From the NCBI RefSeq assembly GCF_017305435.1, contig NZ_JAFKIP010000005.1:124001-188000 (forward strand): a stretch of DNA of 64,000 nt. The letters are read 5' to 3'. Both the position numbers and the translations under genes were made by a program. The stretch comes from Microbacterium sp. GTDB lineage: Bacteria > Actinomycetota > Actinomycetes > Actinomycetales > Microbacteriaceae. Shown one piece after another: positions 9,093 through 25,164 of this stretch. The first letter of the stretch is position 1. Every line of letters begins with the position of its first letter. The notes beneath the pieces were generated by a model. That model was not told where the DNA came from. It did not search any database and was given only the letters and a program-made list of their open reading frames with translations.

Positions 9093-9138
9093 TTGCCAAT
9101 CGACGTGTGTCCTGCTGAGATCGATTGGAATCGATTTC
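9093..9138 (+). promoter_or_regulatory. promoter and LacI-type operator of the GH183 lipoprotein gene
   Basis: TTGCCA (9093-9098), 17 bases, then TGAGAT (9116-9121) make a plausible promoter. The operator GGAATCGATTTC (9127-9138) covers the predicted start point. The same palindrome recurs near 10458, 17915 and 19056. Binding by the LacI protein encoded at 17999 is inferred. Confidence 0.66.
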
Positions 9139-9185
9139 ACGCGGGCGGACGACTGCGCCCGTTTGCGCAAGGAGGCGCACATGCC

Positions 9186-10334
9186 ATGTCTCATCACCGA
9201 AGTCGCTCACGGCGCCTGTGCGCCGTTGCCACGATCGCCGCGACACTGATGCTCGGTGCGTGCGGGTCCACGACTCCCACTGCCGACCGTGCGGGTGACG
9301 ACTTCGTCCTCGCGGGCGTGAGCGGTCTGACGCAGGTCGCGCAGCTGACCGGTCCGGGCGCGATCAACGACACGGAGAAGGTCGGCGTCGCCGGGACCGA
9401 TCTCGGATCGATGGTCAACGTCGGCGATCGCACGTACTTCTTCTTCGGCGATACCTTCGGCGAGCGCGGTCCGGACTCGTACGGCGGCCAGGGCGGCGCC
9501 TGGCGTTCGAATGTGTCCGCGTGGACGACCGATGACGACCCGTCTGACGGCATCACCTTCGGAGGCTGGGCGCCGGTGGACGAGTTCGATTGGGCCGCGC
9601 CGCTCATCGAGGGCGACCACGATGCGAACGACGGCGGGGGCGAAGTCACGAAGATCCCGACCTACGGGTTCGCGGTCGGAGACGCGATGTACGTCGGCTA
9701 CATGTCCGTGAACCACTGGGGTGATCCGGGCGTCTGGGAGGCGAATCATGCCGGGATGGTGGTCTCCAGAGACGGGGGAGCCTCCTGGACAGACCTGCCG
9801 GATGTGCGCTGGCCGGGCGATTCGAACTTCGTGCAGCTCGCGACAGCCCATGTGATGGATGCCGGGGCGGAGTACGTGTACCTCTGGGGCATCCCCGCTG
9901 GGCGCTTCGGGGGTGTGGAGCTCATGCGCGTGCCTGCGAGCACGACGGCTGTCGAGGACATCGCCGCCTACACCTACTTCGCGGGCACGGACGAGACCGG
10001 CACGCCTCAATGGAGCGCGGACCCCGACGCAGCGGAGACGATCGTCGATCCGACCGTCGGGGAGCTCTCCGTGATGTGGTCTGAGTACCTGCAGCGGTGG
10101 GTCATGACCTACTCGGACGCCGGGAGCGCCTACATCCGCGAGGGGCTCGCACCCTGGGGGCCGTGGGGTGAACCGATCGAGATGGTTTCCGCGGACGACT
10201 ACCCCGGTCTCTACTCGCCGTACCTCAACCCCCGCTACACGGATGACGGCGGGCGGCGGCTCTATTTCACCCTGTCCCTCTGGGGTCCATACAACGTCTT
10301 CTGGTTCTCCGTCGATCTCGATAAGGCCGATTGA
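9186..10334 (+). CDS. secreted DUF4185 (GH183-like) lipoprotein, candidate endo-D-arabinanase
   Basis: 382 residues from ATG 9186, ten bases after AAGGAGG. A lipoprotein signal peptide with an arginine-rich start ends in the lipobox LGAC (Cys26), so the protein is tethered outside the membrane. The rest is a DUF4185 beta-propeller-like domain (GVAGTDLGSMVNVGDRTYFFFGD..., GMVVSRDGGASWTDLPDVRW, WSEYLQRWVMTYSD, SPYLNPRYTDDGG). DUF4185 contains family GH183, retaining endo-D-arabinofuranases that cut mycobacterial D-arabinan. Neighbouring GH172, GH116 and D-arabinose-type catabolic genes support that role. I cannot name the catalytic residues. It has its own operator. An alternative role would be cleavage of another furanose polymer. 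Confidence 0.8.
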   Translation: MSHHRSRSRRLCAVATIAATLMLGACGSTTPTADRAGDDFVLAGVSGLTQVAQLTGPGAINDTEKVGVAGTDLGSMVNVGDRTYFFFGDTFGERGPDSYGGQGGAWRSNVSAWTTDDDPSDGITFGGWAPVDEFDWAAPLIEGDHDANDGGGEVTKIPTYGFAVGDAMYVGYMSVNHWGDPGVWEANHAGMVVSRDGGASWTDLPDVRWPGDSNFVQLATAHVMDAGAEYVYLWGIPAGRFGGVELMRVPASTTAVEDIAAYTYFAGTDETGTPQWSADPDAAETIVDPTVGELSVMWSEYLQRWVMTYSDAGSAYIREGLAPWGPWGEPIEMVSADDYPGLYSPYLNPRYTDDGGRRLYFTLSLWGPYNVFWFSVDLDKAD

Positions 10335-10346
10335 TCGCGTCGTTGT

Positions 10347-10358
10347 GAAATCGATATA
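10347..10358. promoter_or_regulatory. weak third-copy LacI-type half-matching site
   Basis: GAAATCGATATA matches 10 of 12 positions of the locus palindrome and lies in the gap between the lipoprotein and binding-protein genes, 111 bases upstream of the strong operator. It might be an auxiliary looping site or chance. Confidence 0.3.
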
Positions 10359-10449
10359 CGGCCCGTCATCCCGCGGATTTGCGCGTCATGTCGCTCTTCT
10401 TCCGCCCGCCAGCTTCCTCGAACTCGGAGAGATCACGGGTGGGAGGCCA

Positions 10450-10478
10450 TTGCGGATGAAATCGATTTCGCCTACAGT
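10450..10478 (+). promoter_or_regulatory. ABC importer promoter with operator inside the spacer
   Basis: TTGCGG (10450-10455) and TACAGT (10473-10478) are 17 bases apart, and the perfect palindrome GAAATCGATTTC (10458-10469) lies wholly in the spacer. A LacI repressor there would exclude RNA polymerase. The layout is the same at 19048-19076. Confidence 0.78.
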
Positions 10479-10582
10479 GTCGATCAACGTCAACGGCGAC
10501 AACCGAGCGCCACGAACGTCCGATCGATAATGATCGGCAGAGCATCGGCTCAGCGGAGAGCCACGTTCCTGAGGAGGGACAC

Positions 10583-11953
10583 ATGATGAGGAGCACACGT
10601 CGTGCGGGGCGCTTCGCCGCTACCGCTCTGGGGGTCGTCGCTGTCGGCGCGATGTTCGCGGGCTGCGGCTCGGGCACCCCGGGCGAAGGGGCGACGGACG
10701 GCGGATCAGCGGACGGAGTCACGACGATCCAGTTCTGGCACCGCACGTTCACGCCTGCCGAGAACGCGTGGTACAAGTCCATCGTCGAGAAGTTCAATGC
10801 CGCGCAGTCCGACATCAAGGTCGTCGACACGGAGGTCCCTGCGGATGCGTGGGACCAGAAGATGAAGGCGGCCCAGGCGGCCGGCAAGGCCCCCGACGTC
10901 TACACGCACGCCGGATCGATCCAGGATGCCGTGAACGCGGGCCAGCTACACGAGCTCGACGGCATCGTGTCGGCGGATTCGCTCAACCAGATCCTTCCCG
11001 CGGCGCAATCGATCTCGAAGATGGGGGACAAGTACTACGCGTATCCGCTGCTGCAGGAGGCGCAGGCGGTCCTCTTCTGGAACAAGGACATGCTCTCCGC
11101 GGCGGGCGTCGATACCGAGAACGGCCCGGCGACGTGGAGCGACCTGCTCGCCGACTGTGCGAAGATCCAGCCCACGCTGCAGGACGGCCAGTACTGCATC
11201 TCCCCCGCCGGTGACGCGGTCACGTTCGCCTGGTCGACGGTCGGGCAGCAGTACAACTTCAACGGCCACCTCGCGCTCACGGATGACTGGACCGCGCCGG
11301 ACATCAACACCGACGGTTACAAGCAGCTGATGGCCAACTACAAGGAGCTGTGGGACAAGGGGTACATGCCCAAGCAGGCCCTGGACTCCTACGTCGGCGG
11401 CAAGGACTTCGGCGAGCAGAAGGTCGCGTTCAAGGTCTCCGGCTCGTGGATGATGTCGGAGATCGGTTCGGACTACAAGGATCTGCTCACCAAGACCGGT
11501 GTCGGCGCGTTCCCGAGCGCGGACGACGCTAAGGGCGACACCACCTCGACGCTCGGCAACTTCAAGTGGGTGGTCGACGCGAAGAGCAAGAACGCAGAGG
11601 CCGCGGGCAAGTTCCTCGAGTGGTCGATCGGCGGCGACCCGGCGAACGTCGTGCCGTTCTTCGTCGACACCCAGTTCACCAAGGTCCCGGTGCGTACGTC
11701 GGTGCAGGATGCCGTCGCGGCGGATGCCAAGGCGGCGGATGCGCCGTGGTCGCAGGTCGTCACCAACGAGATCGCCCCGAAGGCCATCCCCGAGCCGACC
11801 TACCCGTGGGACGTGTCGCTCGCCGTGGGCACCGCGATGGAGTCCGTCATGAAGGGCGCGGCCTCGCCCGAGGACGCGATCAAGACCGCCGAGGATGCGA
11901 TCAACAAGGTCATCCAGCAGCAGGAGCTCCCCAGCAAGGCTCCGAAGAACTGA
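10583..11953 (+). CDS. ABC sugar transporter substrate-binding lipoprotein
   Basis: 456 residues with a signal peptide and lipobox FAGC (Cys28). The mature part is a family 1 extracellular solute-binding protein: VTTIQFWHRTFTPAENAWYKSIVEKFN, KAPDVYTHAGSIQDAV, YPLLQEAQAVLFWNKDML. The GAGGAGGG ribosome site fits either of two adjacent ATGs (10583, 10586). It captures the oligosaccharide outside the cell and passes it to the two permeases encoded next. Given the operator and neighbours, D-arabino-oligosaccharides are the inferred ligand; the sequence itself only says sugar-type. Confidence 0.9.
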   Translation: MMRSTRRAGRFAATALGVVAVGAMFAGCGSGTPGEGATDGGSADGVTTIQFWHRTFTPAENAWYKSIVEKFNAAQSDIKVVDTEVPADAWDQKMKAAQAAGKAPDVYTHAGSIQDAVNAGQLHELDGIVSADSLNQILPAAQSISKMGDKYYAYPLLQEAQAVLFWNKDMLSAAGVDTENGPATWSDLLADCAKIQPTLQDGQYCISPAGDAVTFAWSTVGQQYNFNGHLALTDDWTAPDINTDGYKQLMANYKELWDKGYMPKQALDSYVGGKDFGEQKVAFKVSGSWMMSEIGSDYKDLLTKTGVGAFPSADDAKGDTTSTLGNFKWVVDAKSKNAEAAGKFLEWSIGGDPANVVPFFVDTQFTKVPVRTSVQDAVAADAKAADAPWSQVVTNEIAPKAIPEPTYPWDVSLAVGTAMESVMKGAASPEDAIKTAEDAINKVIQQQELPSKAPKN

Positions 11954-12029
11954 TGTCCGTTCGCCGGGGGTCGGGATGCGCTCCCGACCCCCGGCCCCAT
12001 GCCCGGTATCGATCCACCGCGAGGTAACG

Positions 12030-12992
12030 ATGACGACGACTCAGACCGTCGGTGAGCGCGGACTCACCGAGCTCCTGACGCTTCCCGATGACAAGCTTCG
12101 CCGCAGAGCGATGAACCGCGCGCGCTATCGCGATACGAAGATGGCGTATCTGATGCTGGCGCCCGCCGTCGCCCTGCTCGGAGTCTTCGTGATCTGGCCG
12201 GCGGTCTACGCCGGGTTCCTGTCTTTCCAGGACTGGAGCTTCTACAAGGATCCGCAGTTCGTCGGGTTCCGGAACTTCGTCAACGTCCTGACTGATCCGC
12301 TCTTCTGGGCGGCGATCGTTCGCGGGTTCCAGTTCGTGCTGATGACCGTGCCGATCATGCTCGTCCTCGCCTTCTTCTTCGCGAGTCTCGTAGTGAGCGT
12401 CTCCCGCCACTTCGCCGGGGTACTGAAGGTGAGCATCTACATCCCGACGATCATCTCGGGCGTCATCACGTCGATCATCTTCGTGCTGATCTACGACTAC
12501 TCGGGCGGCCTCCTGAACGCGGTCCTCGGAATGTTCGGGATCGATCCCATCGCCTGGCTCGGCGACCCCGCGTGGGCCCTGGTGGCGATCGCGGTGCCGG
12601 CCGTCTGGCTCGGAATGGGTCTCACCTCGCTGATCATGGTCGCCGCGATGGTGGACATCCCGACGGAGTTCTACGAGGCGGCGGCGATGGAGGGTGCCAA
12701 CTGGTGGCAGAAGACCTTCTACATCACCCTGCCGCAGATGAAGAACATCCTGCTGTACCTCCTGATCACGGGTTTCGTCGCCGCGATCCAGCAGTTCGAG
12801 CTGCCGCTCGTCATGACGCAGGGCGGTCCGTTGGACTCGACGACGTTGCCGAACCTCTTCATCTTCAACCACTTCCGCAACGACATCAGCGTGGGCTACT
12901 CCATTGCGGCAGCGTTGCTGCTCTTCGTCGTCCTGGGCACCGTGTCGGCCCTCGTCTTCCGTTTCGTCAACTCCGAGAGGCTGGTCGACTGA
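12030..12992 (+). CDS. ABC sugar transporter permease (MalF type)
   Basis: 320 residues with six predicted membrane helices after a ~45-residue cytoplasmic N-terminus. The EAA loop that contacts the ATPase reads EFYEAAAMEGANWWQKTFYITLPQM. ATG 12030 follows GAGG by five bases; the frame is open further upstream but lacks a better start. The stop overlaps the start of the second permease (TGATG). No ATPase gene is in the operon, as is usual for actinobacterial carbohydrate importers that share MsiK. Confidence 0.9.
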   Translation: MTTTQTVGERGLTELLTLPDDKLRRRAMNRARYRDTKMAYLMLAPAVALLGVFVIWPAVYAGFLSFQDWSFYKDPQFVGFRNFVNVLTDPLFWAAIVRGFQFVLMTVPIMLVLAFFFASLVVSVSRHFAGVLKVSIYIPTIISGVITSIIFVLIYDYSGGLLNAVLGMFGIDPIAWLGDPAWALVAIAVPAVWLGMGLTSLIMVAAMVDIPTEFYEAAAMEGANWWQKTFYITLPQMKNILLYLLITGFVAAIQQFELPLVMTQGGPLDSTTLPNLFIFNHFRNDISVGYSIAAALLLFVVLGTVSALVFRFVNSERLVD

Positions 12993-13879
12993 TGGCCGTC
13001 GTGACCTCCACCGCGGGCGCGAAGCCCATGAAGATCGAGCACCGCAAGGTGCAGCGGGACGGGCGTTGGTGGGCGTTCGCGATCGGCAAGGCGATCGCCG
13101 GAATCGTCTTCCTCCTCGCCGCACTGTTCCCCCTCGCATGGATGGTCGTCGCGGGATTCAAGACCAAGACCGAGGTGCTCAAGACGCCGTTCCAGTTCTT
13201 CCCCGAGGTGTGGAAGTGGGAGAACTACGCGCAGATCCTCAGCGACCCGGACTTCCTGCGGACCATGGCATGGACCTTCGGCGGCGCGGTCCTCTTCACG
13301 GTTCTCGCCTTGACGGTGAACTCGTGCGCCGCCTACGCGTTCGCCCGGCTCGACTTCCGCTTCAAGCGCACACTCTGGGTCATCGTCATCACGACGATGT
13401 TCATCCCCGGCATGACGATCCTTCTGACGAGCTTCATCGTCGTGACCAAACTCTCGATGCTCGACACTCTCGCGGTGCTCGTCATTCCCGGGGCGGCGAG
13501 CGCGGGCATGATCTTCTTCATCCGCCAGTTCTATCTGTCGATCCCGGCGAGCCTCGAGGAAGCCGCCATGCTCGATGGCTGCGGCCGGTTCCAGATCTTC
13601 GTGCGGCTGTTCCTGCCCCTGTCCAAGCCACCGTTCGTGGTCATGGGCATCACGGCATTCCTCGCGTACTGGAACTCCTACGTGTGGCCGATCCTCACGA
13701 TCACCACGCCCGAGCGCTTCGTCGTCCAGCAGTACCTCGCGACCTTCCGCTCCGAACGCAGCACCGAGCTGGGTCTGCTCATGGCGGGCTCGGTATTGGC
13801 GGCGGCACCGGTGATCATCCTGTTCCTGATCTTCCAGCGCCAGATCATCGGGAACATCAAGATGGCGGGGCTCAAGTAG
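12992..13879 (+). CDS. ABC sugar transporter permease (MalG type)
   Basis: 295 residues, six membrane segments, with the EAA loop ASLEEAAMLDGCGRFQIFVRLFLPLSKP and a C-terminal FQRQIIGNIKMAGLK typical of MalG-like subunits. The start overlaps the stop of the first permease, so the two halves of the membrane channel are made together. The gene ends 34 bases before the convergent oxidoreductase gene. Confidence 0.91.
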   Translation: MAVVTSTAGAKPMKIEHRKVQRDGRWWAFAIGKAIAGIVFLLAALFPLAWMVVAGFKTKTEVLKTPFQFFPEVWKWENYAQILSDPDFLRTMAWTFGGAVLFTVLALTVNSCAAYAFARLDFRFKRTLWVIVITTMFIPGMTILLTSFIVVTKLSMLDTLAVLVIPGAASAGMIFFIRQFYLSIPASLEEAAMLDGCGRFQIFVRLFLPLSKPPFVVMGITAFLAYWNSYVWPILTITTPERFVVQQYLATFRSERSTELGLLMAGSVLAAAPVIILFLIFQRQIIGNIKMAGLK

Positions 13880-13913
13880 GTCGTGCGCTTCACGGTCGCG
13901 GAGCCCCTCTGCG

Positions 13914-15038
13914 TCAGTACCGCGGCACCTCGAGCTTGAGCCCGCCGCGCAGAGACGACTCGTGCGCGACGATGCCCGGGGCGGTGATGGACGCTGCGCG
14001 CCGCGCACCGACGGACGGCTCGCGCCCCTCGACCACCGACGACACGAACTCGTGCACGAGATGCGGGTGCGAGCCGCCGTGCCACGCGTGCACCTCTCGC
14101 GCAGGCCGGCCACCGGGCGGCTGATACATGCTGGGGCGCGTATATGGGCGGATAGTGGGTGGCAAAGCGTCGACGCGGTCGGGCGGCTCGATCTCTCGAC
14201 GCTCGATCGGGCGGCCCCGGTGCCGACCGTCCTGCGGACCGGCGGTGAACAGGACGGTGGCGTCGCCCTCGATCGAGGGCCACTCCAGGGCGCCGAGGTC
14301 TCCGTACACGTTGAAGCCCTCGGTGTAGGCCCGGGCGTTCTCGAAGAACGACAGCGTCACCTGCGCCGCCAACGGCGACGGGGTCGTCAGCTGGAAGAGC
14401 GCCGACTCGAGGGGGAAGGGATTGCTCCCGTCGCCGCGGTGCTGCGGCAGCAGCTCGCCCGAGCCCACGCACACGACCGAGTCCGCGACCGCGTCGGCCA
14501 GGCCGAGCAGCGGCGCCACGATGTGGGTCGCGTACTGCATCGGCGCATAGCCCATCCAATACGGGGGGAATCCGTCGAGGTCCTGCATGTGCGCGCCGCT
14601 GAGGTAGGTGAGCCGACCGAGGGCGCCGGTGTCGCGCAGATGCAGAGCGTGCAGGTATTCACGCTGGTAGAGCGCCGTCTCCATCATCATGTATCGCCCG
14701 GATGCCGCAGCGGCACCCTCCACGACCCGATCGACGTCGTCGAGGCTCGTTGCCATCGGGACGGCGCTCGCGCACGCGCGGCCGCTCGCCAGCACGGAGA
14801 GAGTCTGCTCCACGTGGAAACGCACCGGCGACAGCAGGTGGACGGCATCCCATCGTCCGGTCGCGAGCGCCTCGTCGAGTCCGGCGTAGTCGGCGTCGAG
14901 GCCGTAGGCGTCGGCGACGGTGCGGCGCACACCCCCGTCGGGTTCGACGAGCCCGACCCGGTCCACGTCGGGGTGCAGCTGGTAGAGGTGCAGGAAGTCG
15001 CGGCCGAAGCCCGCTCCGACCACGAGCACGTCGATCAT
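13914..15038 (-). CDS. Gfo/Idh/MocA-family oxidoreductase
   Basis: 374 residues. The N-terminal Rossmann fold starts VLVVGAGFGRDFLHLYQLHPDVDRVGLVEPD. The EKP-like motif of the family is not conserved: the site reads ASAVPMATSL. A C-terminal alpha/beta substrate domain follows. Such enzymes oxidise or reduce sugars with tightly bound NAD(P), and a few are glycosidases. ATG 15038 overlaps the stop of the DUF4185-like gene (ATGA); longer in-frame starts are less likely. As third gene of the GH172 operon it should act on a sugar released from the imported oligosaccharide. The exact reaction is unknown. Confidence 0.82.
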   Translation of the reverse strand: MIDVLVVGAGFGRDFLHLYQLHPDVDRVGLVEPDGGVRRTVADAYGLDADYAGLDEALATGRWDAVHLLSPVRFHVEQTLSVLASGRACASAVPMATSLDDVDRVVEGAAAASGRYMMMETALYQREYLHALHLRDTGALGRLTYLSGAHMQDLDGFPPYWMGYAPMQYATHIVAPLLGLADAVADSVVCVGSGELLPQHRGDGSNPFPLESALFQLTTPSPLAAQVTLSFFENARAYTEGFNVYGDLGALEWPSIEGDATVLFTAGPQDGRHRGRPIERREIEPPDRVDALPPTIRPYTRPSMYQPPGGRPAREVHAWHGGSHPHLVHEFVSSVVEGREPSVGARRAASITAPGIVAHESSLRGGLKLEVPRY

Positions 15039-16678
15039 TCGTCCTTCGTCCCGGGCGCGCCGGCCCGTCGGGCCGTGTCGTCCCACACCTCGAGCTCCGC
15101 GATCGAGGTGAAGCGCATCGGGCCGCCGGCGGTGCCGATGATGCGGATGCCGTCGGCGATGACGGGCGCGAAGCGGAAGACGTACTCCTCCTCCTCCAGC
15201 GCCGCGTAGTCGTTGCGATAGGGAGGGGCCGGCTCCGCGGAGACTTCCACCCACGTGCCGTCGATGCGCGCCTCGAGCCGAGGGCCGTCGGCGAACCAGC
15301 CGCCGAGCGAATCCTGAGGGCCCGGGACGTACACCACCCGCGACATCCGTCGGGGTGATGCCCACTCGTAGCCCCAGACATCCTCCCCGCTGCCCGGCCC
15401 GAACGCCGAGTCCTCGGCGATGTCACGACGGCCGTCGTTGAGGACGATCTCCTGCCCTTCGCGCACGCGCGAGACCACCGGTGACGCGCCGTCGAGCGCG
15501 AGGTTCGCGCGTGACCCGGGGGTCACGGCATCAGTTCCAGGATCGAACACGACCCGCCGCAGCCCGAAGCAGTACGCACGACCTCCGCGAGTGGATGCCG
15601 GGACGAACCAGTTGCTCTGCAGCCACATCGACGTGCCATCGGGAGAGATGAACTTCGAGGGGATCGTCGGCGCGTATCCGCCGTGCTTGGCGAGGGGAGA
15701 GCGCGGGCCATGCCACGGGAAATGCCCGAAGTCATGGCTGTGCAGGTGCCGCCACGGCCCCCACGGCGCCGGTGCTTCGAAGAACTCGAAGGTGTACTCG
15801 CTCCACGTCGAATAGAGATAGCGCCCCAGCCCGGGGTTCCACACGACCGATCCTTGCGCGATGCACGTGAAGTCGTGCGCGCCCATCCCGAACGCGGGGG
15901 TGGGGTAGAAGCGACGCTCGTCGACGAGCACCGGGATCTTGGCTGAGATGTCGGACGACCACACGGGCGCGCCGTCAGGTGTCCACCCAGCGAGGAACTC
16001 CCATTGGGATCGGTCGAGCACGGCGCGCGCGGGGGCTCGACCGAGGTACAGGCACGTGGGGTCCGCGACGATGCGCGAGAACGAGGTGCGCCAGTTGCCG
16101 TCGATCCCGTACGCGTACACCCAGTCGCCGCGTCCACCCGAGCGGCCGAGGTCGAGGAACATGATCGTCGTGAAGACGTGGTCGGGAAACATCGGCTGTG
16201 CGCCCCACGCCCACGTGCGGCCGCCGTCGTCGGAGCGCACGATCGTCGCGGTCGGCGCTTCGTTGAACGTGTCCGGGCCCTCCCCGCAACGCAGATCCTG
16301 CACCGCGAGGTACAGCTCATCGCGGCCGTCGCCGTTGCCGTCGACGGCGATCATGCCGGTGGGTTTGCGGTTGCAGCGCGGGGGATCCCAGATCGGCGCG
16401 ACGGCGTCGCCGTCGCTGAGCCGCTCGCCCGTGAGACCCGTCTCGGGCATCCCGTCGATCCGGTGCACGAGGATGTCGCTCCATCCGTGGCGCGCGAAGC
16501 CGGTGCCGTCTCCGGCCGCCGTGTAGAGCGCATCGTCATCGGCCCACGTGGAGGGCCAGAGGTCTCCGTCGCTCGCGGTGAGCACGGTGTTCGCCTGATC
16601 GACGTGGGCGATGCGGAGCCGGAGCGGTCCGGTGTCGAGGCTCACCGGGGCGCCGTCGACGGCGAGTGTCGGTCTCAC
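15035..16678 (-). CDS. cytoplasmic DUF4185-like protein with C-terminal extension
   Basis: 547 residues from GTG 16678, with no signal peptide or lipobox. The first ~400 residues resemble DUF4185/GH183: SDGDLWPSTWADDDALYTAAGDG, IVRSDDGGRTWAWG, FPDHVFTTIMFLDLG, WSEYTFEFFEAPAPWGPW. The last ~140 residues form a separate beta-rich domain with a discoidin-like feel (WGYEWASPRRMSRVVYVPG..., IRIIGTAGGPMRFTSIAELEVWDD). It sits between GH172 and the oxidoreductase in one operon. If it is a GH183 enzyme it would work on imported oligosaccharides inside the cell. It could also be a non-catalytic relative. Confidence 0.72.
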   Translation of the reverse strand: MRPTLAVDGAPVSLDTGPLRLRIAHVDQANTVLTASDGDLWPSTWADDDALYTAAGDGTGFARHGWSDILVHRIDGMPETGLTGERLSDGDAVAPIWDPPRCNRKPTGMIAVDGNGDGRDELYLAVQDLRCGEGPDTFNEAPTATIVRSDDGGRTWAWGAQPMFPDHVFTTIMFLDLGRSGGRGDWVYAYGIDGNWRTSFSRIVADPTCLYLGRAPARAVLDRSQWEFLAGWTPDGAPVWSSDISAKIPVLVDERRFYPTPAFGMGAHDFTCIAQGSVVWNPGLGRYLYSTWSEYTFEFFEAPAPWGPWRHLHSHDFGHFPWHGPRSPLAKHGGYAPTIPSKFISPDGTSMWLQSNWFVPASTRGGRAYCFGLRRVVFDPGTDAVTPGSRANLALDGASPVVSRVREGQEIVLNDGRRDIAEDSAFGPGSGEDVWGYEWASPRRMSRVVYVPGPQDSLGGWFADGPRLEARIDGTWVEVSAEPAPPYRNDYAALEEEEYVFRFAPVIADGIRIIGTAGGPMRFTSIAELEVWDDTARRAGAPGTKDE

Positions 16679-16687: not shown

Positions 16688-17830
16688 TCAGTCCTGAGGG
16701 GCCCGCGGCGGCGTTGCGCCGATGTCGGGAACCGGAGCGGTCCCTAGGTGGACCTCCATGTCGTCGGCGCTGGGTGCCTTCGGGAGGCGGGCGGTCGGCC
16801 GGTCGAGGTAGAACATGGCGGTCGAGGCGATGTCGTCGCGCAGCGGCAGGTAGCGCCACCCCGATCGCCAGCCGAGGGCCTGGATGTCGACCTTCGGCAG
16901 CCCCGTGGTGAAGAAGATGGGGTCGAGCAGGTGCCACCGGTACATGCCGAAACGCTGCTGCGAGACGTAGAGGCCATCCGGGCGGATGACCTGCGGCATC
17001 CCGAGGTACGGCGTCGAGAAGTCGGTGTACCCCTGTCCGGGGATGTCGAAGTTCCAGGCCCCGCCGAAGTAGTCCTCGGTTCCGGTGCCGCAGATCGTCG
17101 GGTAGTCGGTGTCGTCATCGAGGTAGAACTTGATCTCGCCTTCACCCCACCATCCGTTGGCGTTCACCCCCCAGGCGATATACGTGCCGACGTACTGCCC
17201 GGCGCCTTCGATGCCTTCGAGGATCGTGTGCGGGACGAGTTCGTCGAGCGGGTTCGACCGGCGCCACTGCGCATGGAAGTAGCCGTCGTTCGAGTAATCG
17301 CCGCCGATCTCGTACGTCACCTGGAAGTAGATGCGCACATCGACCACGGACGTGTTCTCGATCGTGAGGCGCGCACCCTCGCGGAACGGCATCGGCCAGT
17401 AGGAATTGAAGCCGCCGTGCGGATTGGCCGCGATCACCTGGGAGTTGACCTGCGCGAAGACACCCCAGCCGTTGCAGAAGAAGTCGCCGTAGGGCACCTC
17501 GACGGCGGGCTCCTCGGCGCCGTCCCAGTAGGCGCGCAGCACGAGAGTGCGCCAGTTGTCGGTGTGCGTGGTGATCCAGATGTGCGTGATCTTGCCGGCG
17601 CCCGAGATGTTCGCGAGGTCGAAGGTCTCACCCGCCTTGATGTCGACACTCGGGGAGATCTTCCAGCCCGGGCCGAGATCACGTGCGCACGATGCGCCGG
17701 TGCCTTCGGTTGCGCGGCCGCCTCCGCCCACCGCGCCGTCGAAGTTCTCCGGCGAGATGGAGCGGGTCTGGATTCCGCGGCGCAGTGCGGCGATCGACGA
17801 GAGGTCAGGGGAGGGCAGGGGAGCAGACAT
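16688..17830 (-). CDS. DUF2961/GH172 glycosidase, candidate exo-alpha-D-arabinofuranosidase
   Basis: 380 residues without a signal peptide. The family DUF2961 (GH172) is recognisable from KITHIWITTHTDNWRTLVLRAYWDGAEEPAVEVPYGDFF, WGEGEIKFYLDDD, TICGTGTEDYFGGAWNF and YRWHLLDPI. Characterised GH172 enzymes are retaining furanosidases acting on alpha-D-fructofuranose or alpha-D-arabinofuranose ends. To my knowledge the latter activity has been shown in a Microbacterium together with GH183 and GH116 enzymes. GAGGAAG precedes the ATG by eight bases. It is the first gene of the minus operon, with the LacI-type palindrome 82 bases upstream. It acts in the cytoplasm on imported oligosaccharides. Confidence 0.85.
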   Translation of the reverse strand: MSAPLPSPDLSSIAALRRGIQTRSISPENFDGAVGGGGRATEGTGASCARDLGPGWKISPSVDIKAGETFDLANISGAGKITHIWITTHTDNWRTLVLRAYWDGAEEPAVEVPYGDFFCNGWGVFAQVNSQVIAANPHGGFNSYWPMPFREGARLTIENTSVVDVRIYFQVTYEIGGDYSNDGYFHAQWRRSNPLDELVPHTILEGIEGAGQYVGTYIAWGVNANGWWGEGEIKFYLDDDTDYPTICGTGTEDYFGGAWNFDIPGQGYTDFSTPYLGMPQVIRPDGLYVSQQRFGMYRWHLLDPIFFTTGLPKVDIQALGWRSGWRYLPLRDDIASTAMFYLDRPTARLPKAPSADDMEVHLGTAPVPDIGATPPRAPQD

Positions 17831-17911: not shown

Positions 17912-17929
17912 GGTGGAATCGATTTCACC
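17912..17929. promoter_or_regulatory. LacI-type operator between the divergent GH172 operon and lacI gene
   Basis: GGTGGAATCGATTTCACC is an 18-base palindrome with one mismatched pair, containing the core GGAATCGATTTC (17915-17926). It can serve both the GH172 operon and autoregulation of the repressor gene. The flanking -35/-10 elements are weak in both directions. Confidence 0.75.
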
Positions 17930-17998: not shown

Positions 17999-18988
17999 AT
18001 GGCGACGATCTACGAGGTCGCGAAGCTGGCGGGTGTCTCGCCTGCCACCGTGTCCCGCGTGTTCAACGGCATGGGCGTCTCCGCCGAGCGTGCCGAGGCG
18101 GTGCGAACGGCGGCGGCCGAGCTCAAGTTCACGCCGAACCGCACCGCCCGAACCCTTCGGCGCCAGGCGTCCGAGGTGATCGCGCTCGTGATCCCCGACA
18201 TCGAGAACCCGTACTTCACCGAGATGGCGCGCGGTGTCGAGGACGTGGCATCCGAAGCGGGATACTCCGTCGTCCTCTGCAACTCCGACTCGCAGATCGC
18301 TAAGGAGGCCACCTACCTGCAGATCGCGATCTCCGAGCACATGGCGGGCGTCATCCTCGCGGCCTCCAGCGATCACACCAACCTCGACGCGCTGCTGGCC
18401 ACGGGCCGCCCGGTCGTCGCGGTCGACCGTGGCACCGGGTACGACATCGACGGGGTCATGATGTCGAATCGCCCGGCAGGACAGGCAGCCACGGAGAATC
18501 TCGTTCAGGCCGGGTACCGCCGGATCGCCTGCATCACGGGCCCGCAGGAGATCGAGACGGCCCAGGAGCGCGCCGCCGGCTGGCGCTCGGTGATCCTGCG
18601 GAACTTCGCCGACGCGGACCCCGACGAGCTCCTGCGGTACTCGACGTTCCGGGTCGACGGTGGGCGTCAGGTCATGGAGGAGCTGCTCGCGCTGCCCGAG
18701 CCGCCCGACGCCGTGGTCGCCGCCAACAACCTGCTCGGGGTCGGGGCCATCCAGGTCCTCACCGAGCACGGACTGACGCCGCCGCGCTTCGGCGTCGCCG
18801 TCGTGGGCTCGCTGCCGTTCACGACGCTGTCGCCGTCGGCGGTGACGGTCGTCCGGCTCCCCGCTCGGCACATGGGCGTGACGGCGGCGAAGATGCTGCT
18901 GGAGCGGATCGGCGGCGACGACCAGCCTGCCCGCACCATCGTGCTGCGCAATGAGGTCCAGCCGGCTCGCGTCTCCAGCGAGCGCTGA
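17999..18988 (+). CDS. LacI-family transcriptional repressor of the D-arabinan locus
   Basis: 329 residues. The N-terminal helix-turn-helix and hinge are standard (ATIYEVAKLAGVSPATVSRV, then TARTLRRQASEVIALVIPDIENPYF), followed by the periplasmic-binding-protein-like effector domain. GAGGAG lies six bases before ATG 17999. The four good palindromes of this locus (9127, 10458, 17915, 19056) have the central CG expected for LacI-type operators, and one adjoins this gene. The inducer is probably a D-arabinose-containing sugar or a catabolic intermediate. The long upstream open frame is antisense to GH172 and is not coding. Confidence 0.9.
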   Translation: MATIYEVAKLAGVSPATVSRVFNGMGVSAERAEAVRTAAAELKFTPNRTARTLRRQASEVIALVIPDIENPYFTEMARGVEDVASEAGYSVVLCNSDSQIAKEATYLQIAISEHMAGVILAASSDHTNLDALLATGRPVVAVDRGTGYDIDGVMMSNRPAGQAATENLVQAGYRRIACITGPQEIETAQERAAGWRSVILRNFADADPDELLRYSTFRVDGGRQVMEELLALPEPPDAVVAANNLLGVGAIQVLTEHGLTPPRFGVAVVGSLPFTTLSPSAVTVVRLPARHMGVTAAKMLLERIGGDDQPARTIVLRNEVQPARVSSER

Positions 18989-19047: not shown

Positions 19048-19076
19048 TTGCTCATGAAATCGATTTCGTCTACAGT
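19048..19076 (+). promoter_or_regulatory. kinase-GH116-isomerase operon promoter with embedded operator
   Basis: TTGCTC (19048-19053), 17-base spacer, TACAGT (19071-19076). The perfect operator GAAATCGATTTC occupies 19056-19067, the same position relative to the -10 box as in the importer promoter. Confidence 0.78.
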
Positions 19077-19104: not shown

Positions 19105-20595
19105 ATGGCGGTGGCCTGCACGCTCGGTGTCGATGTCGGCACCTCCAGCACCAAGGGCGTGCTGGTCGACGGCGACGGCCGCATCCTCGCGTCGGCGACC
19201 CGCGCGCACGACGTCCAGCGTCCGCACGCGGGCTGGGTCGAGATGGATGCCGCGGTGTGGTGGGACGAGTTCGTCTCGATCGCGCAGGAGCTGCGGGAGG
19301 CGGTCCCGGATGCCGCTGTCGCGGCCGTCGGTGTGAGCGGGATGGGCCCGTGCGTGCTGCTTACGGATGCGACCGACGAGCCGGTGCGCCCGGCGATCCT
19401 CTATGGCGTCGACACCCGTGCGACCCGGCAGGGCGAGCGGATGACGGAGGACCTCGGCGAAGACGAGGTCGTCCGCGTCGGCGGTTCGCGGCTGACCTCG
19501 CAGGCCGGTGGGCCGAAGGTCGTCTGGATCGCCGAGGAGGAGCCGGACGCGTACGCGCGGGCGCGGCGCCTGTTCATGCCGGCATCCTGGCTCGTACGGC
19601 GGCTCACGGGCGCATACGCGCTCGATCACCAGTCGGCGAGCCAGATGAGCCCCCTCTACGACGTCGAGGCCGAGGCGTGGGACGTGCCGCTGTGGGAGCG
19701 CTACGCGCGCGGCCTGGAGGCGCCGCAGCTGCGCTGGGCGGGCGACGTCGCCGGCGAGGTGACGGATGCCGCTGCCGCACGCACCGGCATCCCGGCGGGC
19801 ACACCCGTCATCACGGGCACGATCGACGCGTGGTCCGAGGCGGTCAGCGTCGGCGCGCACGAGTTCGGCGACCTCATGCTGATGTACGGGACCACGATGT
19901 TCCTCGTCGCGACGGGGGAGGAGACCCTCCGCACGCCGTCGATGTGGACGACGGTCGGAGCCTTCCCCGGCACCCGCAACCTGGCGGGCGGGCTCGCCAC
20001 CAGCGGCGCGCTGACGACGTGGCTGAAGGACCTCACGGGTGCGGACTACCCCGCGCTGCTCGCGGAGGCGGCCGCGGCGGGCCCCGGCGCGAACGGGCTC
20101 GTGATGCTGCCCTACTTCGCCGGTGAGCGCACCCCGATCCTCGACCCGGACGCGCGCGGGGTGATCGCGGGGCTCACTCTGACGCACGGTCGCGGGCATC
20201 TGTACCGGGCCGCGCTGGAGGCGACCGCGATGGGGGTTCGCCACAACGTGGAGACGATGCGCGCCGCGGGCGCCGACATCCGCCGCATCGTCGCCGTCGG
20301 CGGCGGGACACAGGGCGACCTCTGGCTGCAGATCGTCTCCGACATCACGGGGCTCGTGCAGGAGGTGCCGGCCGCCACGATCGGCGCAAGCTACGGGGCG
20401 GCATTCCTCGCCGCCGCCGCACGGGCGGATGGCGAAGTGCGCATCACTGACTGGAACCCGATCGCACGCACCGTGACGCCCGACCCCACGGTCGCGGCGC
20501 GGTACGACGCGCAGTTCGCGCGCTACCTCGAACTGTACGAGGCCACGAAGACGCTGGCCCACGACCTGGCCGTCCTGCAGAAGGAGTCCGTATGA
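19105..20595 (+). CDS. FGGY carbohydrate kinase, probable D-ribulokinase
   Basis: 496 residues. The FGGY N-terminal phosphate loop is LGVDVGTSSTKGVLVD, GVSGMGP follows, and Asp103 in GVDTRA fits the catalytic base. The C-terminal domain carries AVGGGTQGDLWLQIVSDITG. FGGY kinases phosphorylate ketoses or polyols. Next to a FucI-like isomerase and D-arabinofuranosidases the expected reaction is D-ribulose + ATP to D-ribulose 5-phosphate; xylulokinase is the alternative from sequence alone. AAGGAGG precedes ATG 19105 by four bases. Its stop overlaps the GH116 start (ATGA). Confidence 0.86.
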   Translation: MAVACTLGVDVGTSSTKGVLVDGDGRILASATRAHDVQRPHAGWVEMDAAVWWDEFVSIAQELREAVPDAAVAAVGVSGMGPCVLLTDATDEPVRPAILYGVDTRATRQGERMTEDLGEDEVVRVGGSRLTSQAGGPKVVWIAEEEPDAYARARRLFMPASWLVRRLTGAYALDHQSASQMSPLYDVEAEAWDVPLWERYARGLEAPQLRWAGDVAGEVTDAAAARTGIPAGTPVITGTIDAWSEAVSVGAHEFGDLMLMYGTTMFLVATGEETLRTPSMWTTVGAFPGTRNLAGGLATSGALTTWLKDLTGADYPALLAEAAAAGPGANGLVMLPYFAGERTPILDPDARGVIAGLTLTHGRGHLYRAALEATAMGVRHNVETMRAAGADIRRIVAVGGGTQGDLWLQIVSDITGLVQEVPAATIGASYGAAFLAAAARADGEVRITDWNPIARTVTPDPTVAARYDAQFARYLELYEATKTLAHDLAVLQKESV

Positions 20596-23129
20596 CGACC
20601 CCGCGCCGCGCCCGCGGCATCCCGCACACCTCCGAACCGGCCGCCTTCCTCCTCGGAGGCATCGGCACCGGCAACGTCTCGCTCGGCGCCCGCGGCGAGC
20701 TACGCGACTGGGAACTCGAGAACCTGCCCGACAAGGGCCGGTTCAACCCGTACTCGTTCTTCGCGATCCACGCTCGACCCGCCGGCCGCGACGGGGTCGC
20801 GCGCGTGCTGGAAGCGCGCATGACCGGCCGCCACGACGCAGACGCGGGCTACCCGTTCGACCGGCTCGCAGGACTGCCGCGACTCGCCGGCGCGACGATG
20901 CACGGCGAGTATCCCGTCGTCGACATCGACTTCACCGATGACGTCTTGCCCGTCGACGTGTCGCTGCGCGCGTTCACGCCGCTCGTCCCGCTCGATGCGG
21001 ATGACTCCGGCATCCCCGCCGCCGTCCTGCGCTACTCCGTGACCAACCCGGGCGACGTGCCGGTCGCCGTGACCATCGCGGGGTCGCTGACGCACACGGC
21101 GGGACGCGGCGAGGGCCCCTTCGGCACGCGTGCTGCGCAGCGGGTGGCCTGGCGCGAGGAGGGCCGCGTCCGGGGGCTGGACTTCGGCATCGACCTGCCC
21201 GAGGACGACTTCGGGTACGGCACGATGAGCCTCACCACCACCGACGCCTCGACCACCGTCAAGCCGCAGTGGGCAGTCGGCTTCTGGCCGGACGGCGCCC
21301 GGCTGTTCTGGAACGACTTCGTCGCCGACGGTCTGCTCGAACCCGAGCCGCACCTGACGCTCGAAGATCGCCCGCGCGGCTTGTTCGCCGACGCGGGATC
21401 GGCTGCGCCGATGACCGAGGCCGAGCTGTTCGACAGGCTGCCGCGCCTGCGCACCGGAACGCTCGGCATCGTCCACGAGCTGGCCCCGGGCGAGTGCCGA
21501 GAGTTCGAGTTCGTGCTGAGCTGGAGCTTCCCGAACCGGCGTCGCGGGTGGCTCGGGCACATCGTCTTCGCCGATCCGCACAAGGACGAGGTCGTGCGTA
21601 ACCACTACTCCACGATCTGGCCGGATGCCTGGACGGCGGCGAGCGACCTGCACGAGAGGATGCCGCAGCTCGAGGCGGCCACGATCGCCTTCGTCGAGGC
21701 GCTCTACGGCGGCACGCTCGACCCGGTCATCGCCGACGCGGTCGGCGCGAACATCGCCGCGGCGCGATCGACGACGGGATTCGTCGTCGAGTCGCCGACC
21801 TCCGCGGTGGGTGCGGGTCCCGTCTTCGCCGCGTGGGAGGGCTCGTTCGAGCACGGGGGCTCCTGCGAGGGCACCTGCACGCACGTATGGTCGTATGCGC
21901 AGACCCTCGCGTGGCTGTTCCCGCAGCTGGAGCGCAGCGCCCGGCGCATCGAGTTCCTGCTCGAGACCGACACCGACGGTGCGCAGAAGTTCCGCAGCAA
22001 CCGCGTCTTCGACGGCCCGGCCTGGTTCATGACGCCGGCCGTCGACGGGCAGCTCGGCACCTTCCTGCGACTGCATCGCGAGTGGCGGTTCTCCGGCGAT
22101 GACGCGTTCCTGAGGGAGCTGTGGCCCGCTGCCGTCCGCACGCTCGACCACGCGATCCGGGAATGGGACCGCGACGGCGACGGGCTGCTCGACGGCGAGC
22201 TCCACAACACGTACGACATCGAGTTCCACGGCATCGATCCATTGGCGAACTCGGTGTTCCTCGCGGCGTTGCGCGCTGGGGCGCGCATGGCTGAGCACCT
22301 GGGCGAAGCCGAGCGTGCCGCGGACTGGTCGGCGCGCGCCGACCGCGCGGCTGGTGCGATGGATGCCGTGCTGTTCAACGGCGAGTACTACCGTCAGGTG
22401 ATCGACGACGTCGATGCGCACCGGTACCAGTACGGCGACGGCATCCTCTCCGATCAGCTGCTCGGCCAGTTTCACGCCTACCTGAACGGTCTGGGTGACC
22501 TGCTGCCGCGAGAGCACCTGCGCAGCGCGCTCGAGGCGATCGTGCGCCACAACCTGCGCGAGGACCTCACGGGGCACGAGAACCTGCAGCGGGTGTATGC
22601 GCTGAACGACGAAGGGGGACTGCTGCTGGCCTCCTGGCCCCGCGGCGGTCAGCCTGCGATCCCGTTCGTCTACTCGGATGAGGTGTGGACCGGCATCGAG
22701 CACCAGGTCGCGACGACGCTCGCGTTCGCCGGACTCACCGACGAGGCCCTGCGCGTGGAACGCATCCTGCGCGCCCGCTACGACGGCACGGTGCGCAACC
22801 CGTGGAACGAGATCGAGTGCGGCAACCACTACGCGCGCTCGCTCGCCTCGTGGGGGCTGCTGCTCGCCTTCAGCGGCGCGCAGTGGGATGCCGCCGAGCG
22901 CTGCCTCTCCTTCGATCCGCCCGCCGATGGCCGCCACCTGTTCACCACCGGCACCGGCTGGGGCCGCGTCACGGTCACCGGCGATGCGATCGAACTGCGG
23001 CTCGACGGCGGCGAACTCGACCTCGAACGGCTGCTCCTCCGGGGGCACACGGCATCCGGACCGCGCCTTCTTCGCGCGGGCGACACTCTGACCGGGCATC
23101 TCGACCTCACACCACAGGAGACACCATGA
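20592..23129 (+). CDS. GH116 glycoside hydrolase, candidate exo-beta-D-arabinofuranosidase
   Basis: 845 residues, no signal peptide. The N-terminal beta domain opens with AAFLLGGIGTGNVSLGARGELRDWE, typical of the GBA2/GH116 family. The C-terminal (alpha/alpha) domain holds DGELHNTYDIEFHG, with Glu536 in the place of the nucleophile, and YSDEVWTGIEHQ, with Asp696 in the place of the acid/base. These residues are assigned by motif and not by structure. GH116 members cleave beta-glucosides; one branch from Microbacterium is known to act on beta-D-arabinofuranose. The context with GH172, DUF4185 and an isomerase favours that activity. Start and stop overlap both neighbours by four bases, so it is tightly coupled in the operon. 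Confidence 0.87.
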   Translation: MTTPRRARGIPHTSEPAAFLLGGIGTGNVSLGARGELRDWELENLPDKGRFNPYSFFAIHARPAGRDGVARVLEARMTGRHDADAGYPFDRLAGLPRLAGATMHGEYPVVDIDFTDDVLPVDVSLRAFTPLVPLDADDSGIPAAVLRYSVTNPGDVPVAVTIAGSLTHTAGRGEGPFGTRAAQRVAWREEGRVRGLDFGIDLPEDDFGYGTMSLTTTDASTTVKPQWAVGFWPDGARLFWNDFVADGLLEPEPHLTLEDRPRGLFADAGSAAPMTEAELFDRLPRLRTGTLGIVHELAPGECREFEFVLSWSFPNRRRGWLGHIVFADPHKDEVVRNHYSTIWPDAWTAASDLHERMPQLEAATIAFVEALYGGTLDPVIADAVGANIAAARSTTGFVVESPTSAVGAGPVFAAWEGSFEHGGSCEGTCTHVWSYAQTLAWLFPQLERSARRIEFLLETDTDGAQKFRSNRVFDGPAWFMTPAVDGQLGTFLRLHREWRFSGDDAFLRELWPAAVRTLDHAIREWDRDGDGLLDGELHNTYDIEFHGIDPLANSVFLAALRAGARMAEHLGEAERAADWSARADRAAGAMDAVLFNGEYYRQVIDDVDAHRYQYGDGILSDQLLGQFHAYLNGLGDLLPREHLRSALEAIVRHNLREDLTGHENLQRVYALNDEGGLLLASWPRGGQPAIPFVYSDEVWTGIEHQVATTLAFAGLTDEALRVERILRARYDGTVRNPWNEIECGNHYARSLASWGLLLAFSGAQWDAAERCLSFDPPADGRHLFTTGTGWGRVTVTGDAIELRLDGGELDLERLLLRGHTASGPRLLRAGDTLTGHLDLTPQETP

Positions 23130-24757
23130 CCTACATCCTCCCCACCCCCACCCTGCGCCCGGCGACGGAGCCGAAGACGCTCTACCTGATCACCTCGGGC
23201 GACCTGCGCGAGTCGGCGAACGTCGCCGGCTGGCCGGTGCAGCGCGACCTGGAAGCCGCGGTGACGCGCGCGTTCGAGGCGCTGGGCTGGGCGGTCATCC
23301 GCCCGTTCGATGTCGACCCCGCCACCGGGCACGGCTACATCTCGAGTCAGCGCATGGGTCTCGAGGTATTCAAGAAGATCCCGACCGACGCGCCGCTGGT
23401 GGTCGCGACGGCGAACTGGCAGTACTCGCACCACGTGTTGGCAGGCCTGCGCACCCACACCGGCCCCATCCTGACGGTCGCGAACTTCGCGCCGGACTGG
23501 CCAGGCCTCGTGGGTCTGCTGAACCTCAACGCGAGCCTGACGAAGATGGGCAAGGACTACTCGACGATCTGGTCGGTCGATTTCACCGACGAGTGGTTCC
23601 GCGCGGGACTGAAGGAGTGGACTGAGACCGGCACGATCACACACGACGCATCGCACGTGCGTCCGCTCCCCGCGCTGCCCGACTCGCCCGAGAAGACCCT
23701 CGGCGAGGCGCTCGGCGATCAGCTGCTCGCCGACAAGGCGATCATCGGCGTCTTCGATGAAGGCTGCATGGGCATGTACAACGCGATCTTCGATGACGAA
23801 CTGCTGAACCCGCTCGGCATCTATAAGGAGCGCCTCTCGCAGTCGGCGCTGTACGCGGAGATGCTCACGGTCTCCGAGGACGACGCGAACGCGGCGTACG
23901 ACTGGCTCATCGGTCACGGTATGACCTTCGTCTACGGCGAGGATGCCGCGACCGAGCTCACCCGCGAGCAGGTGCAGTGGCAGCTGAAGATGTACATCGC
24001 GGCGCTGCGTCTGGCGGACGATTTCGGACTGGATGCCGTCGGCATCCAGTATCAGCAGGGCCTGAAGGACGTGGTCCCGGCATCCGACCTCGCCGAAGGC
24101 ATCCTCAACTCGACCGAGCGGCCGCCGGTGTTCTCGCGCGACGGCAAGCGCGAGCTGCACGCGGGCCGCGCGTTCCCGCACTTCAACGAGGTCGACGAGG
24201 GTGTCGCGGTCGACGCGCTGATCACCGATCGGGTGTGGACGGCCATGGGCCTCGTCCCCGACAACACCCTGCACGACGTGAGGTGGGGCGAGGACTACGA
24301 CGGGCAGTTCGTCTGGGTCTACGAGATCTCGGGCTCCGTGCCCGCCTCGCACCTCGGCGGTTGGGAGAAGGCCGAGGGCTGGCGACAGGGGCACGTCTTC
24401 TTCCCCGCCGGCGGCGCCACGATCAACGGTGTCTCGAAGCCGGGCGAGGTGGTGCTCTCGCGCGTGTTCATCGAGGACGGCATCCTCCAGGCCGACGTCT
24501 TCCGCGGGACGGTCGTCGAGCTCCCCTCCGACGAGACGCAGCGCCGGAAGAACGCCACCAACCCCGAGTGGCCGATCGCGCACGTCGTGCTCCACGGGAT
24601 CACGCGCGACCAGTTCATGGCACGCCACAAGGCGAACCACGCGCAGGTCGTCTACGCGCCGGATGCCGCGACCGCCGACAAGGCCCTCGTCGCGAAGGCC
24701 GCGATGTTCGACCGCATCGGCATCAAGGTCAACCTCACCGGTACCGTCAACGCCTGA
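23126..24757 (+). CDS. L-fucose/D-arabinose isomerase family protein
   Basis: 543 residues of the FucI fold: two N-terminal domains and a C-terminal domain ending in an ISGSVPASHLGG...GHVFFPAGGATINGV region. The DEGCMGMYNA segment (Asp211-Glu212) belongs to the conserved metal/substrate area of this family. FucI-type enzymes convert L-fucose to L-fuculose and, equally well, D-arabinose to D-ribulose with Mn2+. With a ribulokinase-like gene and D-arabinofuranosidases in the same operon, D-arabinose is the likely substrate. No fuculose-phosphate aldolase is present, which argues against fucose. ATGA overlap with GH116; cytoplasmic. Confidence 0.87.
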   Translation: MTYILPTPTLRPATEPKTLYLITSGDLRESANVAGWPVQRDLEAAVTRAFEALGWAVIRPFDVDPATGHGYISSQRMGLEVFKKIPTDAPLVVATANWQYSHHVLAGLRTHTGPILTVANFAPDWPGLVGLLNLNASLTKMGKDYSTIWSVDFTDEWFRAGLKEWTETGTITHDASHVRPLPALPDSPEKTLGEALGDQLLADKAIIGVFDEGCMGMYNAIFDDELLNPLGIYKERLSQSALYAEMLTVSEDDANAAYDWLIGHGMTFVYGEDAATELTREQVQWQLKMYIAALRLADDFGLDAVGIQYQQGLKDVVPASDLAEGILNSTERPPVFSRDGKRELHAGRAFPHFNEVDEGVAVDALITDRVWTAMGLVPDNTLHDVRWGEDYDGQFVWVYEISGSVPASHLGGWEKAEGWRQGHVFFPAGGATINGVSKPGEVVLSRVFIEDGILQADVFRGTVVELPSDETQRRKNATNPEWPIAHVVLHGITRDQFMARHKANHAQVVYAPDAATADKALVAKAAMFDRIGIKVNLTGTVNA

Positions 24758-24759
24758 CG

Positions 24760-25164
24760 ATGCGCACAGGGTCAGGCATACTGCATCCCGCGCTCACGCG
24801 GGTGATCGCCGAGGCGGGGCACACCGACCTCGTCGTCGTGACCGACGCGGGCCTGCCGATCCCGCCCGGGTCGGAGCGCATCGAGCTTGCGCTCCGACCC
24901 GGCCTGCCGGGCTTCGTCGACGTCCTCGATGCGATCCTCGCCGAGATGTCGGTCGAGGGCGCGACCGTCGCCGAGGAGACCGCCGCGGAGAACCCCGAGC
25001 TGTTCGAGGCGCTCCGCGAGCGCCTCGCGTCGATCGGCGTCGAGCCCGTGCTCGTGCCGCACCTCGAGTTCAAGCAGCTGTCGCGCGGCGCACGCGCGTT
25101 CGTGCGCACGGGGGAGTTCACGCCGTTCGCGAACGTGATCCTGCATGCCGGCGTGCCGTACTGA
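24760..25164 (+). CDS. RbsD/FucU-family sugar pyranase or mutarotase
   Basis: 134 residues. The family pattern is clear: GILHPALTRVIAEAGHTDLVVVTDAGLPIP near the N-terminus (the His of GHTD is the usual active-site base), PGLPGFVDVLDAILAEM in the middle and RTGEFTPFANVILHAGV at the end. RbsD and FucU interconvert pyranose, furanose and anomeric forms of free sugars. D-arabinose leaves GH172 and GH116 as a furanose, so this enzyme would speed supply of the ring form or open chain used by the isomerase. It begins two bases after the isomerase stop and closes the operon. Confidence 0.88.
   Translation: MRTGSGILHPALTRVIAEAGHTDLVVVTDAGLPIPPGSERIELALRPGLPGFVDVLDAILAEMSVEGATVAEETAAENPELFEALRERLASIGVEPVLVPHLEFKQLSRGARAFVRTGEFTPFANVILHAGVPY

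Follow-up and report, generated by a model that had tools for sequence, protein, structure and literature searches.

A LacI-controlled catabolic locus for D-arabinan is very probably encoded at positions 9126-25164 of the 64,000-nucleotide stretch of DNA analysed here (hereafter the window, to which all coordinates refer), which spans C3:124001-188000 in a 3.50-Mb Microbacterium genome of 10 contigs. By strand and spacing, the locus was divided into five groups, namely, GH183; the sugar-binding protein (SBP) and two permeases of an ATP-binding cassette (ABC) importer; GH172, a second DUF4185-like protein (D4185b) and a Gfo/Idh/MocA-type oxidoreductase (MocA) on the minus strand; LacI; and an FGGY kinase, GH116, a FucI-like isomerase and RbsD (Table 1). 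The predicted route from D-arabinan through D-arabinose and D-ribulose to a pentulose phosphate, as proposed in an earlier note on this DNA, finds good support in the residues shared with characterised enzymes and in a common operator. Pfam and NCBIfam profile matches recovered every gene that the note had named; MocA was missing from its list, and the score of D4185b below the Pfam cut-off (33.3 vs 39.5 bits) had gone unremarked.

Enzymes, importer and operators of the predicted pathway

GH172 and ExoMA1 (8ic8) were identical at 334 of 369 aligned residues (90.5%, 814.7 bits). The DUF2961 domain is present, and Asn253 of ExoMA1 is kept at the place where alphaFFase1 has Gly299. ExoMA1 is a crystallised exo-alpha-D-arabinofuranosidase in which Asn253 is reported to block fructofuranose (PMC10509167). 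GH116 matched ExoMA2 (8ic6) at 1372.9 bits, with 155 of 204 residues identical (76%) over the stretch compared, and the four ExoMA2 active-site residues checked (Glu431, His446, Arg483 and Asp557) are all kept once a constant shift of +4 between the numbering of the paper and that of the chain is applied, without which the places do not fit; on these residues, the protein is assigned to the exo-beta-D-arabinofuranosidases of GH116 subfamily 4.

The genome holds two DUF4185 matches, and only the GH183 of the two carries a signal. GH183 shares 124 of 314 residues with EndoMA1 (8hhv; 39.5%) and keeps all eight EndoMA1 residues checked (D33, D51, E243, R198, W138, P141, L292 and Y293); the nucleophile D33, acid/base D51 and third carboxylate E243 correspond to D72, D89 and E293. 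The N-termini of nine proteins were screened with a simple hydrophobicity and lipobox pattern rather than a trained signal predictor, and were strongly hydrophobic in GH183 and SBP only (2.1 on a 15-residue scale, against at most 1.33 for the other seven). The FAGC lipobox of the SBP was missed by the simple pattern and recognised by eye. No ATPase gene for the importer was found among the frames scanned within the locus. In a 52-row tree, GH183 grouped with seven SBP-adjacent Microbacterium GH183 proteins in a clade of eight (support 100/99), apart from EndoMA1. MIAR_33320 of M. arabinogalactanolyticum is a GH183 gene next in number after the SBP gene MIAR_33310, and its product gave no soluble expression in E. 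coli (PMC10509167); it is the uncharacterised positional counterpart of the window GH183, matched by gene numbering and not by sequence. GH183 relatives 50-52% identical to that of the window were also observed in Paenibacillaceae (L038, L048 and L082; Bacillota), with an importer and a remoter second GH172 as neighbours.

The FucI-like isomerase is divergent. No Protein Data Bank (PDB) chain was found at E 1e-3 by sequence search, and the best profile match, to the D-arabinose isomerase 3a9r, was weak (E 0.031) and limited to the C-terminal part. The AlphaFold model (predicted local distance difference test, pLDDT, 88.9) retrieved the same B. pallidus enzyme as top PDB match (E 1.5e-21, template modelling (TM) score 0.47-0.51), and on this model the protein is assigned to the FucI fold; its action on D-arabinose in this organism is a prediction. 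RbsD, the single copy found in the genome, scored above the equivalog cut-off of 93 for D-ribose pyranase, and may act on arabinose.

The 3.5-Mb genome contains TGRAATCGATTYC four times, each time within the locus. A search with the 14-base palindrome TGAAATCGATTTCA at no more than 2 mismatches returned the same four sites, all of them with 1 mismatch, against 0 for a control with the pattern reversed. GH183, SBP and the kinase each have one site upstream, and the remaining site separates GH172 from LacI. The first base of the first site is position 9126, at which the earlier note had begun the locus. Relatives were drawn from the best 80 of 579 loci (the named loci), many of which hold only remote GH172 genes, and from 20 further loci, 19 of which were chosen for holding D4185b; counts over these sets are not a census. 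Among the 59 loci with a LacI match longer than 280 residues (L009/L148 and L028/L138 being same-genome pairs), a site with at most 1 mismatch was present in 47 of 48 with a LacI at least 50% identical and in 1 of 11 with a less similar LacI. Mononucleotide shuffles within 200-base bins, five per locus, gave 0 sites. The four-site operator set, to which LacI presumably binds, supports co-regulation of the locus genes. Weaker copies (3 mismatches) at 9116, 10346 and 19029, near the strong ones, are possible second operators.

In the mechanism proposed from these matches, the surface GH183 lipoprotein would cut D-arabinan chains outside the cell, and the SBP and two permeases would import the oligosaccharides, presumably with energy from a shared ATPase whose gene lies elsewhere. 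In the cytoplasm, GH172 would remove alpha-linked and GH116 beta-linked D-arabinofuranose, with D4185b and MocA as putative accessory steps on the imported oligosaccharides. RbsD would speed the change between furanose and pyranose, the isomerase would convert D-arabinose to D-ribulose, and the kinase would feed D-ribulose 5-phosphate into the pentose phosphate pathway. Repression by LacI would act through the one operator type until an inducer, probably derived from arabinose, arrives. What the importer, kinase and RbsD act on, and where the D-arabinan comes from in nature, are likewise predictions.

Table 1. Genes and operator sites assigned to the locus
Feature	Position	Strand	Basis
LacI-type operator TGGAATCGATTTCA, upstream of GH183	9126..9139		1 mismatch to TGAAATCGATTTCA
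GH183 (DUF4185) lipoprotein, predicted endo-D-arabinanase	9186..10334	+	Pfam DUF4185 272.9 bits; lipobox LGAC
Operator TGAAATCGATTTCG, upstream of SBP	10457..10470		genome motif search
SBP of ABC importer	10583..11953	+	SBP_bac_1 97.6 bits
ABC permease 1	12030..12992	+	BPD_transp_1
ABC permease 2	12992..13879	+	BPD_transp_1
MocA, Gfo/Idh/MocA-type oxidoreductase	13914..15038	-	Pfam PF01408 41.4 bits
D4185b, GH183-like beta-propeller and C-terminal CBM32-like domain, without signal peptide	15035..16678	-	DUF4185 33.3 bits; hhalign; AlphaFold
GH172/DUF2961, predicted exo-alpha-D-arabinofuranosidase, without signal peptide	16688..17830	-	284.8 bits; 90.5% identity to ExoMA1
Operator TGGAATCGATTTCA, between the divergently oriented GH172 and LacI genes	17914..17927		genome motif search
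LacI-family repressor, presumed locus regulator	17999..18988	+	Pfam LacI and Peripla_BP_1
Operator TGAAATCGATTTCG, upstream of kinase	19055..19068		genome motif search
FGGY pentulose kinase, predicted D-ribulokinase	19105..20595	+	xylulokinase-like by sequence
GH116, predicted exo-beta-D-arabinofuranosidase, without signal peptide	20592..23129	+	ExoMA2 8ic6 1372.9 bits
FucI/D-arabinose-isomerase-like enzyme	23126..24757	+	Fucose_iso_C; AlphaFold
RbsD-type pyranase	24760..25164	+	D-ribose pyranase NF008761 144 bits

Weighing the substrate

Several points weigh against the D-arabinan assignment. The GH183 is only 39.5% identical to the proven enzyme and falls in a separate clade (100/99), the isomerase is without a close solved relative, and the FGGY kinase lies below every NCBIfam cut-off, with xylulokinase as the nearest models; its D-ribulose specificity is a prediction. 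A kinase match at 50% identity is absent from some relative loci, and a close GH116 is absent from L133, L146 and L147. Two unclassified Aldolase_II genes lie on other contigs of the genome, and a route via a 1-phosphate and a FucA-type aldolase is kept as an alternative because of them.

A different furanoside substrate (alpha-D-fructofuranosides or difructose anhydrides, for example), on which GH172 would act as an alpha-fructofuranosidase, is very improbable. The GH172 family does contain the difructose dianhydride enzyme alphaFFase1 (7v1v), but its match to the window GH172 is remote (117.7 bits, far below the ExoMA1 score), and this fructan reading was rejected on the scores and on Asn253 in place of Gly; GH116 with ExoMA2 residues and GH183 with EndoMA1 residues under the same operator also speak against it. 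D-arabinose glycans other than actinobacterial wall arabinan, such as D-arabinofuranose (D-Araf) on pili or lipopolysaccharide (LPS) or small D-arabinosides, are an unlikely target. In their favour, GH172 and some GH183 enzymes cleave D-Araf oligosaccharides from the pili of P. aeruginosa PA7 (PMC10115798), and several Streptomyces loci combine GH172, isomerase, kinase, importer and DUF4185 proteins with no GH116 match. Against this, the GH116 exo-beta enzyme fits the beta-linked ends of lipoarabinomannan described in PMC10509167, and a secreted endo-enzyme with an oligosaccharide-type importer fits a polymer.

Remodelling of the organism's own envelope is the least probable reading. GH183 enzymes are carried by mycobacteria themselves (PMC10115798), but a profile search of this genome with PF04602 (Arabinose_trans) gave no match, with C. 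glutamicum positive (1 of 14 controls), and own-wall remodelling was rejected on that absence. The catabolic isomerase and kinase within the locus and the patchy occurrence of the close GH172 type (64 of 295 genus genomes) also count against it. Microbacterium walls are not known to contain arabinan, which agrees with the PF04602 result. The earlier note's proposal that the organism uses D-arabinan from the walls of other actinobacteria as food is reasonable with regard to the PF04602 result; less probably, the D-arabinofuranosides could come from other sources, such as the pili of P. aeruginosa PA7 or some LPS (PMC10115798).

D4185b and its neighbour MocA

D4185b appears to be a divergent cytoplasmic relative of GH183. 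Comparison of the two by hhalign gave a probability of 99.2 (E 7.6e-20) and paired the same columns as the alignment. Its AlphaFold model (pLDDT 82.8) ranked EndoMA1 first in the PDB (E 5.1e-20), sialidases next and M. tuberculosis AraH2 at rank 11, and the C-terminus matched CBM32 domains; whole-length TM-scores were low (0.41-0.47). Sequence comparison with the PDB gave nothing strong, the best profile match being of sialidase type (E 0.0031) over short Asp-box stretches. The catalytic Asp pair (Asp39 and Asp57), Arg197 and Gln275 were found in all 38 aligned rows. At the position of EndoMA1 Glu243, Gln stood in 38/38 D4185b rows versus Glu in 36/36 other DUF4185 rows. The alignment left out seven of 44 D4185b stretches, namely, a duplicate, two pieces of a single gene and four others, which were checked by motif instead; by motif, Gln was present in 42 of the 44 fetched copies, the remaining 2 being fragments without that part. 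A weak DUF4185 open reading frame of L068 (E 1.5e-5) was dropped from the rows.

D4185b thus lacks the third carboxylate of GH183, and its assignment as an ordinary GH183 was rejected on this fixed change, seen in both the alignment and hhalign. In EndoMA1, E243Q nearly abolishes activity, and Glu243 acts as a support for Arg198, the residue that holds the sugars at -3 and -2 (PMC10509167). The fold, two catalytic Asp and Arg are common to D4185b and the GH183 family (EndoMA1 8hhv; M. tuberculosis AraH2 8an0); unlike that family, D4185b has no signal peptide, Gln for the essential Glu, no Trp, Pro and Tyr positions in the alignment and a CBM32-like C-terminus. The tree placed all 16 D4185b rows in one group (support 100/100) on a long branch, with a warning from the tool of long branches meeting. 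Two types were distinguished: the long one of the window, with the CBM32-like C-terminus, and a short one without it.

D4185b was found in 21 of 295 genus genomes, with none of its 31 hits farther than 3 kb from the GH172 gene (hypergeometric 6e-16, a figure that ignores relatedness). Relatives occur at GH172 loci of Streptomyces, Actinotalea, Agromyces, Flexivirga, a Rhodoglobus metagenome-assembled genome (MAG) and an acidobacterial MAG; these were found through a GH172 query, and their link with GH172 follows from that choice. In Microbacterium sp. Root180 (L028:14020-14472 = L138:13198-13650), only a 151-residue C-terminal stretch of the long type was found, before MocA, and the gene therefore looks decayed there.

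The substitution possibly marks a changed, perhaps exo-acting specificity; a non-catalytic role is also conceivable. We tentatively propose that D4185b forms a new branch of GH183 in the cytoplasm, which kept both catalytic aspartates and became a retaining furanosidase of exo-acting or linkage-specific type through the Glu-to-Gln change and the loss of substrate-holding positions. It might clear parts of imported arabino-oligosaccharides beyond the reach of GH172 and GH116 (e.g. branch points, or arabinose-galactose junctions bound by the CBM32-like domain), coupled in the window to a MocA-type NAD-dependent step. The literature search, which was not aimed at that subject alone, found no paper on a cytoplasmic DUF4185 protein.

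The MocA gene overlaps that of D4185b by 4 bases, with its start on the D4185b stop. Strong orthologues (560-685 bits) were found in 4 of 100 relative loci, namely, L028/L138 (one genome), L137 and L022, and weak ones in L019 and L071; MocA was rejected as a usual part of such loci on this count. In the three other genomes, the strong orthologues all stand beside a D4185b gene.

Distribution and relation to published systems

GH172 at E 1e-60 or better was found in 73 of 295 sampled genus genomes, 64 of which hold the close type (nine genomes with a remoter type at 46-51% identity were left out of the 64). A DUF4185 match occurred in 78 of 295 genomes, 71 above the cut-off. In the family sample, GH172 was found in 8/199 and D4185b in 1/199 genomes, the window's own genome counted. 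The five core genes (GH172, LacI, kinase, GH116 and isomerase, each at least 50% identical) occurred together in 12 of the 80 named and 12 of the 20 further loci, 22 of them distinct. Judged from these counts, the genus carries the locus as an established trait of patchy occurrence. The recurrence of the close GH172 type and of the five core genes, together with the operator confined to the block, also speaks against a chance grouping. Streptomyces loci L034, L036, L040, L054 and L076 hold GH172, importer, LacI, kinase, FucI-like isomerase and D4185b, some with a second DUF4185, together with 1-2 copies of the same operator and no GH116 match; they perhaps represent a wider D-arabinoside regulon. 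A heat-shock operon of the dnaK-grpE-dnaJ-hspR type (5106-9061) directly precedes the locus, and its hspR-side neighbour recurs in several congeners; the outer neighbours hspR and DUF2252 are both present at L014, L136 and L142.

RbsD matched in 78 of 295 genus genomes, 34 of which are among the 64 with close-type GH172. The two genes are 6.9 kb apart in the window; in the 33 other genomes with both, they lie at least 81 kb apart on the same contig (20) or on different contigs (13), where fragmented assembly could hide nearness. The 44 other RbsD genomes were left out of this count, including G339 and G380, which hold only remoter-type GH172, on another contig. Just two remote RbsD hits (E about 1e-6) were found in the 100 relative loci. 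RbsD was rejected as a standard part of a D-arabinan polysaccharide utilisation locus (PUL), being near GH172 in none of those 33 genomes. Several congeners (e.g. L009 1971-3514) have other sequence in its place after FucI, sometimes an open frame; two such frames scanned gave no Pfam match.

A D-arabinan PUL of the sister species M. arabinogalactanolyticum (MIAR_33170-33320), published in 2023, comprises four GH183 genes, an ABC importer, GH172, GH116, an isomerase and a kinase; in quantitative reverse-transcription PCR, genes of this cluster were induced by both D-arabinose and an extract of mycobacterial walls (PMC10509167). The same paper already describes the pathway model and related clusters in other bacteria. 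The window locus, from the same genus and with a GH172 90.5% identical, has this clustered Gram-positive-type set of secreted GH183, importer, cytoplasmic GH172 and GH116, isomerase and kinase; it differs in having one secreted GH183 instead of four GH183 genes that include EndoMA1 and EndoMA2, and it has a pyranase and an oxidoreductase, neither of which is named in the main text of that paper. The main text of PMC10509167, supplements apart, contains none of the words regulator, repressor, operator, oxidoreductase, pyranase and mutarotase. The earlier note had regarded the linkage of the hydrolases with an importer, catabolic enzymes and a regulator as going beyond what the enzymes alone would show; read as going beyond what was known, this claim mostly fails because such a locus had been published, and its regulator part stands relative to that main text. 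Our literature search, with subscription papers mostly outside its scope, found no paper on the regulator or operator of such loci. PUL42 of Dysgonomonas gadei, abundant on D-arabinan, likewise has DUF4185 and DUF2961 enzymes and a predicted fucose isomerase (PMC10115798), with a putative GH116 (PMC10509167); it belongs to Bacteroidota and is likened here by description.

New in detail, as judged from the sequences compared, are the SBP-adjacent GH183 clade, RbsD within the locus, D4185b with its fixed Glu-to-Gln change and MocA beside it. In so compact a locus, the SBP-adjacent GH183 would have to cut alone outside the cell, and the function of that uncharacterised clade is therefore directly checkable. 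The operator delimits the candidate regulon exactly, and the locus draws attention to a cytoplasmic protein akin to GH183, found in several families as a partner of GH172. New enzymes of defined linkage specificity would be tools for dissecting arabinogalactan and lipoarabinomannan.

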